Position numbers and translations under genes: made by a program. A stretch of DNA of 42,743 bases from Candidatus Bathyarchaeota archaeon (lineage in GTDB: Archaea > Thermoproteota > Bathyarchaeia > 40CM-2-53-6): the NCBI GenBank assembly GCA_005881695.1, contig VBBT01000106.1, positions 1-42,743 of the forward strand, read 5' to 3'. Positions 21,008 to 26,190 of this stretch are shown here, piece by piece; positions within the stretch are counted from its first letter, which is position 1, and every line of letters begins with the position of its first letter. The notes below the pieces were generated by a model that saw only the letters and a list, made by a program, of their open reading frames with translations, did no database searches and was not told the DNA's origin.

Positions 21008-22091
21008 GGGCGTTATCAAAGAACGGAAAGAAAAGGTCCTATCCGCGATGCGGGACCTTGGCGGACAGGTCTACGGCCAGCTCAACAAGAAGGAATTTCC
21101 AACCTTCCGTATGCCAAGCCGATCCATAGCCAACATACTCTACGACTCGAAGACAAGACAGTACATTCTGGGAAAGAGAACTGTCAAGAGGAGCGCTCGA
21201 AACGTAAGACATCTCCGCCCCTTCACGCAACTCCTCTGGACAGCCATGTTCGCGGACGAACTCACAGAGCAGAACAAGACCAGCACGCTGAGAGACGTGT
21301 TCTACTCGGCCCAAGCCTACGAGATGGACTTTCAGGACCAACAGGAAAGCGACAATCTCATCACCGATCTAGAAACCGTAACCGGATACTCGAGAGAAGA
21401 CTTCAACGTCTACCCTGAAGAAAGAAGCGCAATATTCGGCGACCTGACAATCGAGTACACTGTCCCTGGATACGAAGGACGACGGCTAAACCTAGCCTCT
21501 CACCCTGACGGCGTGATGATCGGACCTGCCCTCACAACCTCAGAGTTCATCCAACCCGACAGCCGAAAAGTCGACAAAGTAATAGCGATCGAGAAAGGCG
21601 GATTGTTCACGCGGTTCATAGAAGAACGCGTACACCAGCGCTTCAAAGCCGTCCTTATCCACACCGCAGGACAAGCACCCAGAGCGACAAGGTTTCTGCT
21701 TCGCAGGCTCAACCAGGAATTGGACATTCCGGTATACATATTCACGGACGGCGATCCTTGGGGCATGCACATTGCTATGGTCATTATTTCTGGATCCGCT
21801 AATGCAGCCCACCTTCGCGAGCTGAACACTCCAGACGCAATCTGGGGCGGGGTCTGGGCAACAGACATTGTCGACTACAAACTCCCGAGCGATCCTTTGA
21901 CTGACTTGGATGTCAAAAGGTTGAACGAGTTGGAGAAAGACCCTCGCTATGCTGGAGGACTCTGGCAGAGAGAGATAGATACCTTCCGAAAGGTCAAGAA
22001 GAAATCGGAACAAGAAGCATTCAGCAGATACGGGCTCACCTACATCGTTGACGAGTATCTACCGAAGAAACTAAAGATCAAGTCCAACTAG
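20976..22091 (+). CDS. top6A: DNA topoisomerase VI subunit A (Spo11-like)
   Basis: EMDFQDQQESDNLITDLE, VIAIEKGGLFTRF, VYIFTDGDPWGMHI (Toprim); overlaps top6B by 32 bp. Confidence 0.96.
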   Translation: MVQKRKKSKSKGVIKERKEKVLSAMRDLGGQVYGQLNKKEFPTFRMPSRSIANILYDSKTRQYILGKRTVKRSARNVRHLRPFTQLLWTAMFADELTEQNKTSTLRDVFYSAQAYEMDFQDQQESDNLITDLETVTGYSREDFNVYPEERSAIFGDLTIEYTVPGYEGRRLNLASHPDGVMIGPALTTSEFIQPDSRKVDKVIAIEKGGLFTRFIEERVHQRFKAVLIHTAGQAPRATRFLLRRLNQELDIPVYIFTDGDPWGMHIAMVIISGSANAAHLRELNTPDAIWGGVWATDIVDYKLPSDPLTDLDVKRLNELEKDPRYAGGLWQREIDTFRKVKKKSEQEAFSRYGLTYIVDEYLPKKLKIKSN

Positions 22092-24448
22092 ACAAACTGT
22101 TCAAGTCCCAAAGCGACAGATTTCTTCATCTGAGGGGGCTTGTTGAGATCAAGTTTACCGTAGACACCGTCGTAACCTGGTTCGACAAAGACATCGTCGT
22201 TACGCACACGAAGAATCGCTCTAGCGATCTCTGGTCCAGCCGCCGCTAGCAGCTGGGCCTCGGAAGCGTCTAGCATCACGGAATATTCTGACCCGAATTT
22301 TCCAACAAGCATATTGTACTTCTCCCAGACTTTCGTTGAACCGGGATTAACCTCACCGATCAAGAGGGCAATAATCTCGGAGAGCGGGAGCAAATGGCGG
22401 TACCCGATTGCATTCTTCGGGACGTAGCCTTCGGGTCGGTCCGCAAGTTCTTCTATCCGTTCTTCGACGCCCCGAGTCATCTTCTTTCCGCACTTGGGAC
22501 ACTTGTCGTCTAGGTTGCGAGCATCCCTGGCGGACATTGAAACTTGACAGTCACGATGTCCAGTCCAGTGGTATTTGCCATAGGCAGGCGAGGTCTCTAT
22601 CGTGAACAAGAAACGTTTAGGATCCTTGTCTCTGATCGCCCCAACCAGATTGTGATATGTAACATGGTCTAGAGCGAATAAGTTTGCTTCTCTTCCCAAC
22701 CGCCACGGCCACGCCGAGTGCGCGTCAGAATTCGAGACAAGACAGAGACGATCGAGCTGGGAAAGCCGCCAGTTCATCGGGGGATCCGAATTGCCGGACC
22801 AGACTGGAACTCCATTCCTTCTTACATATACTGTCTTGTTTGGCACACTAACGCACGAGACGATACCACCATAGGATCCCCATTTTTCTATATGATTGGA
22901 GTCTTTGATCATTGATGGAATAACGACGGGTTCATTCTTCATTATGAAATAAATAGTCCAAGAGTCCTCGCTCTGTAGGTAATGCTTCTCTCCTGATAGC
23001 GAAGAAAGCAAAGTTCCCTTCTTCCGATGAAGTTTGAAGTATGCGGACATCCCAAGCTTTAGAGCAATCTCTTGCAAATCGTCGCGCAGACGCACGGATA
23101 TGGTTGTTGCAGACAGGCCCTTTCTGTTCCTTCCATACCGATGACCATCTCCCCTAATGTACCATTCAAAGAAGACTCGCAGAAGATTCGGCGAGAGACT
23201 CTTTATGTTATCTGGAACAAACTTGTTACTTGCCCCCGAGAACCGTTTCAGATAGTCGAAAAGTTGAACATCTCTCACTCTTAGTCTGTATCCGTTTCTG
23301 TCCTTTGCAACAAGTGGATTGAATCCAAGGGTTTTCAAGATCTGCCTCATTTGTGTAAGCAGCTTCAGGCTATGATTGGAAAGGTACACGCTATACTCGC
23401 TTCTTGATTTGGTTACCCATCCCTCGGCAATCCAAAACCCAAAGAACTTGAGCCAGGGAATCACTGGCATGTGAATTTCTTTGACAATTCGAAATTCAGA
23501 GTGGTGCCGACTGCCATGCCTTACTCGTGTTCCAGGGATGAGGAACGTCTCGCTATCCACACCCCTCCACGCTCCATCCTTCTTGAGTCGTTTTGATTTT
23601 CCGAACAAAGCTCGCGCATCACCTAGCCTCAAATCCTTCGAACTTCTAAAGTCGCAAGGCCGGTAGACCAACCTGTGATTCGGCGTCACAAGTAAATCCA
23701 CTCGTTGAGTCTTCAATTCGTACATCGTGCCGTTGTAATTATAAACAAATACCCCGTGGGGCCTCTGGAACTCTATTGTCTCAGATTCCAAGTTCAAAGT
23801 GCAAACCTCATCATGATATTCTACATCATAGACTCGTTTCCAGCCACGATTCGTGAGCACCTCTGTCTTTTCGTCGTAACACGACATGCCTGTTTCGAGC
23901 GCGAATATTCTGTCAGTTCTATCCTGATAGCAATCGGTGACGCTGTCAAATCCACTGTTTGCGCCGAAGAGGCTGAACCAGGGGGTCCAGGCGTGCGCGG
24001 GAAAGACTACGCATTGTCTGTCGGCTTCAAGCACCTCATCCACGAGCTCTGGAGCGGTCGCACGTAGTGTGGGCCGACCGTCGCTCAGGAGGTTCCCGTA
24101 CTTCGCCAATCGATCGGCTACGGAATCCGCTGCCTCTATCGAAGGAGCGAGAAGGCAATGATGTATTCTTCGCGACTTCTCACCGAATTGGTAGGTGGTG
24201 TTGACTTCTCCGGTGATCATGTACTGTACTTGGAAGGGACCGTCCCTGAGCTGGTAAAGTCCCGAATCCGGAGAATCTTGTAGGTCCTTACGAATCTCCT
24301 TTCTCCAATCAGGATGGGTGAAATCGCCCGTTCCGACAATGTTCAGTCCCTTCATTTCAGCGAAGCGGGCGAGCTCTTTCAGGTCCATGTTCTTGCTCGT
24401 CGCCCTGCTGTAAGGGCTGTGGACTTGAAGGTCAGCAAAAACACGCAT
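22088..24448 (-). CDS. Endonuclease Q (EndoQ)-like PHP-domain protein, intein-containing precursor
   Basis: DLQVHSPYSRATSKNMDL, GTGDFTHPDW, SNSDAHS, CPKCGKK with upstream HRDC; about 422-aa extein after intein removal. Confidence 0.88.
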   Translation of the reverse strand: MRVFADLQVHSPYSRATSKNMDLKELARFAEMKGLNIVGTGDFTHPDWRKEIRKDLQDSPDSGLYQLRDGPFQVQYMITGEVNTTYQFGEKSRRIHHCLLAPSIEAADSVADRLAKYGNLLSDGRPTLRATAPELVDEVLEADRQCVVFPAHAWTPWFSLFGANSGFDSVTDCYQDRTDRIFALETGMSCYDEKTEVLTNRGWKRVYDVEYHDEVCTLNLESETIEFQRPHGVFVYNYNGTMYELKTQRVDLLVTPNHRLVYRPCDFRSSKDLRLGDARALFGKSKRLKKDGAWRGVDSETFLIPGTRVRHGSRHHSEFRIVKEIHMPVIPWLKFFGFWIAEGWVTKSRSEYSVYLSNHSLKLLTQMRQILKTLGFNPLVAKDRNGYRLRVRDVQLFDYLKRFSGASNKFVPDNIKSLSPNLLRVFFEWYIRGDGHRYGRNRKGLSATTISVRLRDDLQEIALKLGMSAYFKLHRKKGTLLSSLSGEKHYLQSEDSWTIYFIMKNEPVVIPSMIKDSNHIEKWGSYGGIVSCVSVPNKTVYVRRNGVPVWSGNSDPPMNWRLSQLDRLCLVSNSDAHSAWPWRLGREANLFALDHVTYHNLVGAIRDKDPKRFLFTIETSPAYGKYHWTGHRDCQVSMSARDARNLDDKCPKCGKKMTRGVEERIEELADRPEGYVPKNAIGYRHLLPLSEIIALLIGEVNPGSTKVWEKYNMLVGKFGSEYSVMLDASEAQLLAAAGPEIARAILRVRNDDVFVEPGYDGVYGKLDLNKPPQMKKSVALGLEQFV
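22790..23881 (-). mobile_element. Intein (364 aa) with LAGLIDADG homing endonuclease domain, within EndoQ
   Basis: Starts CYDEKTEVLTNRGWKRVYDV (block A); LLVTPNHRLVYR (block B); LKFFGFWIAEGWV and FFEWYIRGDGH (dodecapeptides); ends KTVYVRRNGVPVWSGN|S. Extein junction ETGMS|SDPPMNW. 1092 nt, in frame. Confidence 0.93.
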
Positions 24449-24975: not shown

Positions 24976-26190
24976 TTGTCGTTTATCGTGCTTGCTGTCA
25001 AGTCTGTCTGGCAATACTATGTTCCATCAAGGGATGTTCTGCGATTGCTGGACATGTTCAGATGGATGGTTAATGATTCCATAGGGATCGGTCTGGTGAA
25101 CGGTGCGTCTTCTCTGAGAAGGCTTTCACTCCTCTCCTACAGCCAGCTCGCCCGCTACGATTCTCCGAGCTGCTACAAGCTCTGCGCGATATCACGCGCC
25201 GCAGGAATACTAGCAGCCCAGAAGAAGTCTGTCAGGAGAGGTTTCACCACTAGGACCCCGTACTCTTTCAAACAGCAGCTCGTCTCCTGCTACGGCTTCA
25301 AGATAGAGAATGGATACTTGCGTATTCCGGTATTGAGAGGGAAACGCTTCAGCATACCCTTGACCAAGCACATGTTAGAGGTGATATCTCAACCAAGAGT
25401 CAAGGTTCGCTCTTTCACCCTCACCCAGAACAGACTGAGTCTCTGCATCGCCCGCGACACTCCCAGGATAGAATGCACGTCCACGATCGGCGTGGACCGT
25501 AACCTTCGTAATCTAACGGTTGGAAACGACGAGGAGACCCGTCACTATGACCTCTCGAAGTGTGTGAGAATGGCGAAGACTACTGTGCGTATCGTCGCGT
25601 CTTTCACACGGAACGATGATAGGATAAGAACAGTAATAGCATCGAAGTACGGAGAACGTAGAACAGCTAGGACTGGTCATCTGCTCCATAATGCCACAAA
25701 AACGATTGTTGCAATGGCAGTCCGCCGGAGAGAAGCAATAGTTCTCGAGAACATCGGCGGTATCCGATCCCTCTACAGGAAGGGTAACGGTCAGGGTGGA
25801 AAGTATCGTGGTAGAATGAACGGGTGGAGTTTCGGAGAGGCTCAACGACAGATCGAGTACAAGGCCCGATGGATAGGCCTACCGATAATCCGTTTGTCTA
25901 GGCGTGAGACCAGAGGTTCCAGTGTGACTTGTCCGAGATGCGGGGAGAGACTCCAATCAGACAAGAAACTGAAACGCAAACTCTGGTGCGGTAACTGTAG
26001 AATAGTAATGGACCGGGACATGGTTGCGGCTGTTAACCTGGCTCGGCGGGGACGGGTGAGGTTCGCACGTTCCCGGCCTCCCATCATCGAGGCGCAAGGC
26101 GGAGCAGTTGAAGCAATGAAGGGGAACCCGACGCCTACGGTAATCCCCGGAGTCGATGCCCCGAAGCTAACTCAACCAACAAAGAGTTAA
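24976..26190 (+). mobile_element. tnpB: IS200/IS605-family TnpB (RNA-guided nuclease-type transposon protein), no TnpA in window
   Basis: RuvC-like motifs IGVDRNLRN, AIVLENIGGI, MDRDMVAAVNLARRG; zinc-ribbon CPRCGERL...CGNC. Confidence 0.93.
26168..26189. repeat. TAACTC-(10 nt)-GAGTTA hairpin at the 3' end of tnpB, candidate right-end element
   Basis: Perfect 6-bp inverted repeat read directly; overlaps the last tnpB codons. Confidence 0.45.

Follow-up and report, generated by a model that had tools for sequence, protein, structure and literature searches.

An in-frame insertion of 364 residues interrupts a gene for an endonuclease Q (EndoQ)-like nuclease of a bathyarchaeon, within the stretch of 42,743 nucleotides analysed here (the window). 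It raises the question of whether this insertion is an intein that can still splice and move, and of whether it has become part of how its host enzyme is controlled. An earlier reading of the DNA (the original prediction) had described an intein beside a catalytic residue of the nuclease, at a possibly new insertion site, and had proposed that splicing might gate a repair enzyme.

The insertion and its host gene

The precursor reading frame runs from 22088 to 24448 on the minus strand and encodes 786 amino acids (aa), with an ATG start and zero internal stops. The insertion lies in frame between Ser189 and Ser554 (Table 1), with the junctions ETGMS/CYDEK on the N side and VWSGN/SDPPMNW on the C side (slashes mark splice junctions throughout), and its removal in silico leaves an EndoQ-like PHP nuclease of 422 aa. 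The intein landmarks of the original prediction were all found: block A (CYDEKTEVLTNRGW), TPNH, a pair of LAGLIDADG-type motifs (FFGFWIAEGW and WYIRGDGH) and the ending ...VPVWSGN/S. Its coordinates for the insertion and its length for the extein also proved exact. A chimeric assembly is ruled out as the source of the insertion, as identical junctions recur across 24 other loci, drawn from many assemblies. In a genome-wide search the EndoQ intein was present as a single copy, with no further copies in the source genome.

Table 1. Features of the interrupted EndoQ-like gene, in plus-strand coordinates of the window
Feature	Position	Strand	Evidence or counterpart
N-extein, aa 1-189 of EndoQ-like PHP nuclease, end ...IFALETGMS	23882..24448	-	Pfu EndoQ residues 3 to ~171; TIGR00375 positions 2-167
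Intein of 364 aa (aa 190-553): LAGLIDADG endonuclease nested in Hint splicing domain	22790..23881	-	profiles, fold, homologous same-site inteins in 24 other loci
Intein block A, CYDEKTEVLTNRG, including Cys1	23843..23881	-	alignment; Cys1 invariant 25/25
Intein block B core TPNH (intein T66, N68, H69)	23675..23686	-	alignment; invariant
LAGLIDADG motif 1, FFGFWIAEGW; presumed catalytic acid, intein E153	23417..23446	-	invariant column
LAGLIDADG motif 2, WYIRGDGH; presumed catalytic acid, intein D245	23141..23164	-	alignment; lost only in L017 (GCG)
Intein blocks F and G, VSCVSVPNKTVYVRRNGVPVWSGN: F:4 Cys, Lys for block F His, penultimate Gly, terminal Asn	22790..22861	-	alignment; block definitions PMC5222942
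C-extein, aa 554-786, begins S+1 DPPMNW; contains SNSDAHS and Cys-rich metal site	22091..22789	-	Pfu EndoQ 188-382; TIGR00375 167-373
D575 codon, counterpart of Pfu EndoQ Asp193	22724..22726	-	SNSDAHS aligned to Pfu 190-196
Stop codon of precursor reading frame	22088-22090	-	

The reading of this insertion as an intein with a probable homing endonuclease, placed inside a near-invariant motif of an EndoQ-like PHP nuclease, is supported by profiles, fold matches and homologous inteins. The LAGLIDADG_3 profile (PF14528) matches the intein at E=1e-14 over two stretches. The Pfam Intein_splicing match of the window protein is weak (E=2e-3, below the model cut-off), yet 24 of the 25 aligned family members match the same profile at E<=0.01, the best of them at 1e-7. 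Matches of the window protein to gp41 were weak (E >= 0.005) and judged to be due to chance. The structural model of the intein, which is of low confidence at residues 66-103, matches the TliVMA intein, PI-SceI, PI-PkoII and PI-PfuI in Foldseek (E 4e-15 to 6e-10; 4e-15 to 9e-12 for VMA inteins, PI-SceI and PI-PkoII), with the Hint fold recovered against VMA inteins at E down to 4e-15. For an AlphaFold model of the whole precursor, the best Foldseek match is EndoQ of P. furiosus (Pfu; 5zb8, E 5.5e-25, TM 0.85 by target length), which extends across the insertion, followed by intein endonucleases that are matched separately. The TliVMA and PhoVMA inteins (7qsu, 7qss, 7qst), PI-PkoII (2cw7), PI-PfuI (1dq3) and PI-SceI (1vde) have the same architecture, a LAGLIDADG endonuclease nested in a Hint fold, but they occupy different host genes and sites, share only 9-16% identity with the EndoQ intein and have been studied experimentally, whereas the latter is known from sequence and model.

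The identity of the host, which the original prediction had proposed to check against EndoQ, held for both extein halves: the flanks align to Pfu EndoQ (5zb8, 7k30) over its residues 3-178 and 188-382, at E 1.5e-61. The Pfu enzyme has no intein, reads ELGLSADSDMA at the site where the window protein would read ETGMSSDPPMN, and carries His8 where the genus of the window has Gln. With the intein in place the window protein scores 208.8 bits against TIGR00375, below the curated cut-off of 326.6 bits, and intein-free relatives in the phylum also fall below it, at only ~255 bits; since the cut-off is missed with or without an intein, the window protein is best placed in a divergent EndoQ-like subfamily. 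Its PHP metal motifs are retained at D575/H577, H10 and other positions, while HxH has become QxH. This His8 to Gln change (Pfu numbering; codon 8, 24425-24427, minus strand) is shared by every EndoQ-like gene sampled from the genus, occupied or empty, and other lineages have His. Because the cut-off is missed and the first His of HxH is Gln, 'EndoQ-like' is the safe name, and action of the window nuclease on deaminated bases, which in EndoQ takes the form of nicking on their 5' side, would be assigned to it by homology only.

The insertion splits the near-invariant motif E185-S189/S554-W560. The original prediction had argued that the unspliced precursor should be inactive, on the ground that the insertion lies one residue from the catalytic Asp193 of Pfu EndoQ. 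That ground is lost in the alignment, in which Pfu D193 (replaced by Asn in the sequences of 7k30 and 7k31) corresponds to D575 in SNSDAHS, residue 22 of the C-extein, and the Asp beside the junction, D555, corresponds to approximately Pfu D173. The precursor is still plausibly inactive, because the insertion splits the near-invariant motif.

Two genes from the EndoQ-like gene, a 404-aa TnpB/Cas12f-like protein (PF07282) is encoded at 24976-26190 on the plus strand, adjoining an Lrp/AsnC-type regulator. Other inteins are present in the same genome. An AmmeMemoRadiSam-type radical SAM enzyme (L058:223-2418, G000 contig C11) carries an apparent intein whose nested nuclease is DUF559/REase_MTES_1575-like, not LAGLIDADG, and there is one intein in MCM and there are two in family B DNA polymerase (L055:466-3636, L056:1-3348; G000 contigs C111, C48), both of these proteins being familiar intein hosts.

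Splicing residues and the nested endonuclease

Cys1 (aa 190), TPNH, the terminal Asn (N553) and Ser+1 (S554) are invariant among the 25 same-site inteins, which gives the window intein the N-terminal Cys nucleophile, the block B T..H and the C-terminal Asn with Ser+1 of a class 1 intein. The common helpers of this class are replaced, with Cys at F:4, Lys at the block F His and Gly as the penultimate residue. Block F Asp/His and the penultimate His are common but non-obligatory helpers in class 1. Across the whole EndoQ intein family the penultimate His is absent and the block F His position varies freely; the F:4 Cys is present in nearly all members (Ser in L016), and most relatives have an extra Cys two residues ahead of the terminal Asn. 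Splicing persists in several inteins in which the customary His residues are missing (PMC7664689). The 786-aa precursor most likely self-splices by a class 1 pathway initiated by Cys1, the order of steps being drawn from the residues present and from established knowledge of inteins. An N-S acyl shift at Ser189-Cys190 would be followed by transfer to Ser554 and cyclisation of Asn553, and religation would release the mature nuclease and a free intein.

Each of the two LAGLIDADG motifs of the nested domain carries an acid (AEGW, E153; RGDGH, D245), as in LAGLIDADG homing endonucleases. The first acid is invariant among the 25 inteins and the second is missing only in L017. Between the window and L003, its counterpart in another genome, dN/dS is 0.11 for the intein, 0.09 for the endonuclease part and 0.12 for the extein (0.05-0.19 over all parts of the intein), and since the values for the intein and its endonuclease resemble that of the extein, the splicing and endonuclease parts both look selected. 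The excised intein is thus probably an active homing endonuclease. As a free protein of 364 aa it would cleave unoccupied EndoQ alleles at the corresponding codons, and repair templated on the occupied allele would then copy the intein into the empty one.

Distribution, relatives and probable horizontal transfer

A scan for precursors over 84,980 species genomes, biased to occupied sites by a search word (NSDPPMNW) that spans the junction, yielded 24 further EndoQ-like genes with an insertion (L003-L026) together with two whose site is empty (L027, L028); in anaerobic ribonucleotide reductase genes it also returned six inteins related to the EndoQ one (L029-L034). All 25 EndoQ inteins lie between identical residues, ETG[LMI]S/SDP.MNW, and the empty-site relatives read ETG[LMI]SSD..MNW straight across. 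Occupied and empty sites, which the original prediction had proposed to survey, were both found, with flanks conserved at the empty ones. Hosts of this allele, always at the identical position, belong to Bathyarchaeia, Brockarchaeota, DPANN, Parcubacteria and Omnitrophota. Of the suggestion that the insertion site may be new, one part stands, as the literature search brought up no published EndoQ intein, but the occupied site recurs beyond this genome, with the allele in no fewer than 24 other loci.

Occupancy was estimated from TIGR00375 matches in whole genomes, where an intein appears as two matches meeting at model positions 166-168; the resulting figures are estimates, as the data include incomplete genomes and fragmentary matches. 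The intein is rare (~2-4% in phylum samples) and patchy down to genus level by these estimates. Two of the eight EndoQ-bearing genomes of the window's own genus are occupied. In the phylum sample 136 genomes gave a match, and 5 of these, counting the source genome of the window, are occupied; the figures are 3/129 in Omnitrophota (two of them already known loci), 1/52 in Patescibacteria (the seed) and 2/94 in Nanoarchaeota (one of them the seed). No other intein insertion site in EndoQ was seen in the surveyed genomes. Long EndoQ frames (e.g. G421, G538, G826, G831, G875) were considered as inteins and rejected, their extra length being a repeated N-terminal PHP half. This extra half lies upstream in the same frame in the EndoQ-like genes of G421, G538, G807, G826, G831 and G875 (Patescibacteria, Nanoarchaeota), and G807 additionally shows a split where the intein inserts. 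In Omnitrophota (G581, G583, G585, G600, G650, G715, G729), EndoQ-like matches lie within open frames of ~1,000-1,116 aa, a length that hints at a second large domain fused to them. The Tagabacteria genome that contains L006 (G071) has two EndoQ-like genes, one occupied and one empty.

The closest relatives found in other hosts are the anaerobic ribonucleotide reductase inteins of Parcubacteria and archaea, with 30-35% identity over the whole intein. They share the ending ...RRNGK..W[CS]GN and the F:4 Cys with the EndoQ intein, but they occupy a different enzyme at the site PLTG/C...GN/SIGV (another site in L032). Several of these reductases carry two or more inteins. Viral or phage-borne relatives (L060-L088) have 26-39% full-length identity and mostly a ...VRRNGK...GN/S ending (S/T/C at +1); their hosts are glycosyltransferase-like, terminase-like and other proteins on viral contigs, with no EndoQ among those inspected. 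A close viral source of the EndoQ intein is ruled out, the viral contigs having only distant relatives in other hosts.

The intein and host trees disagree, and this probably reflects transfer between archaea and bacteria. The window and L003 inteins are sisters (support 100/100), while their exteins group with different empty-site relatives and a joint extein clade is rejected (AU p 2e-45). Synonymous divergence between these two loci is higher in the intein (pS 0.64) than in the extein (0.47), a difference that points to separate acquisitions or to unequal rates. With support 98/97, the inteins of L025 (Parcubacteria) and L021 (Pacearchaeota) form a sister pair, a grouping that the exteins reject (AU p 7e-9). 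In L004 and L024, intein pS is 0.159 against 0.444 for the N-extein, and identity upstream of the junction is 93-98% over the first 135 nt and 76-91% beyond that, the footprint expected of homing with co-conversion. AU tests of single intein clades rejected neither Parcubacteria (p 0.067) nor Bathyarchaeia (p 0.075) at 0.05, and the number of transfers is uncertain given these borderline values. The intein would persist by recurrent horizontal transfer, including transfer between archaea and bacteria, with no service to the host.

A probable mobile intein and its rival explanations

It is very likely that the insertion is a mobile intein, combining a Hint splicing domain with a LAGLIDADG endonuclease at one fixed site of EndoQ-like genes, which splices itself, probably homes and has spread by recurrent horizontal transfer. 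The element is called probably active and mobile on the basis of its dN/dS of 0.11, both endonuclease acids, the disagreement of the intein and host trees and the footprint resembling co-conversion. The points against are the missing block F and penultimate His residues, the Intein_splicing score of the window protein below the cut-off, the low confidence of the intein model at residues 66-103 and the borderline AU tests of single intein clades. The missing His residues, of which the first is replaced by Lys, could also be taken as decay, the loss of splicing or of endonuclease activity in a gene that is turning into a pseudogene, and the His8 to Gln change of the first PHP metal motif in the genus would fit such a course. 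We consider decay highly improbable, as the frame is open, the catalytic residues are invariant, dN/dS is low in all parts of the intein, and the His positions are missing or freely variable family-wide; Gln8 is also found in empty-site relatives, so the insertion is not its cause. The first step of splicing could differ from that proposed above if the F:4 Cys, and not Cys1, attacked the N-junction, making the element a class 1/class 3 hybrid; this is a variant of the mobile intein reading that concerns the chemistry of that step only. Class 3 inteins are defined by Trp at B:12, Cys at F:4 and Thr at G:5, with Cys1 dispensable, and in these the F:4 Cys initiates splicing and Ser+1 is typical (PMC5222942). 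Both the F:4 Cys and Ser+1 are features of the EndoQ inteins, and one of the three solved sequences that their family profile matches is a class 3 intein, AceL NrdHF. Membership of class 3 is rejected, however, as B:12 is Leu, G:5 is Ser (or Cys in the family) and Cys1 is invariant, so that only one position of the W-C-T signature fits, and a class 3-like start is for these reasons unlikely.

A role for the intein in its host is harder to sustain. The original prediction had proposed a repair enzyme gated by splicing, whereby the intein would be retained because conditional splicing (through redox, heat or metal) controls activation of the nuclease. The split motif and the plausibly inactive precursor fit this proposal, and Cys1, the block F Cys and the further Cys of most relatives make redox control conceivable. 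Most EndoQ genes, those of close relatives within the genus included, nevertheless have an empty site, and the intein has a phylogeny of its own. The proposal is unsupported on this evidence and appears improbable, and the absence of the intein from most EndoQ genes argues that it is not a needed regulator. We give similarly little credence to a more specific reading, in which a cross-domain intein family at one EndoQ site has a redox-sensitive splicing start with two cysteines (Cys1 and the block F Cys), making maturation of a deaminated-base repair nuclease redox-dependent in the carrier lineages.

The mobile intein reading places the interest of this locus in its host and its distribution. 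A literature search, intein databases such as InBase lying outside it, turned up no earlier report of an EndoQ intein, and the only paper to bring up both subjects treats them separately. The finding is of moderate interest as a host gene for which no earlier intein record was found, the intein itself being of a familiar type; an EndoQ intein alone does not open a long-standing question. The EndoQ-like nuclease joins the DNA-repair genes that host inteins, with one site common to archaea and bacteria. Its unusual set of residues (Cys1, F:4 Cys, no block F His and a penultimate Gly) makes a simple mutational test possible where class 1 and class 3 splicing meet. Paired alleles, one occupied and one empty, some within a genus and some with intein exchange across domains, constitute a natural data set on homing in the uncultured DPANN, Parcubacteria, Omnitrophota and Bathyarchaeia.
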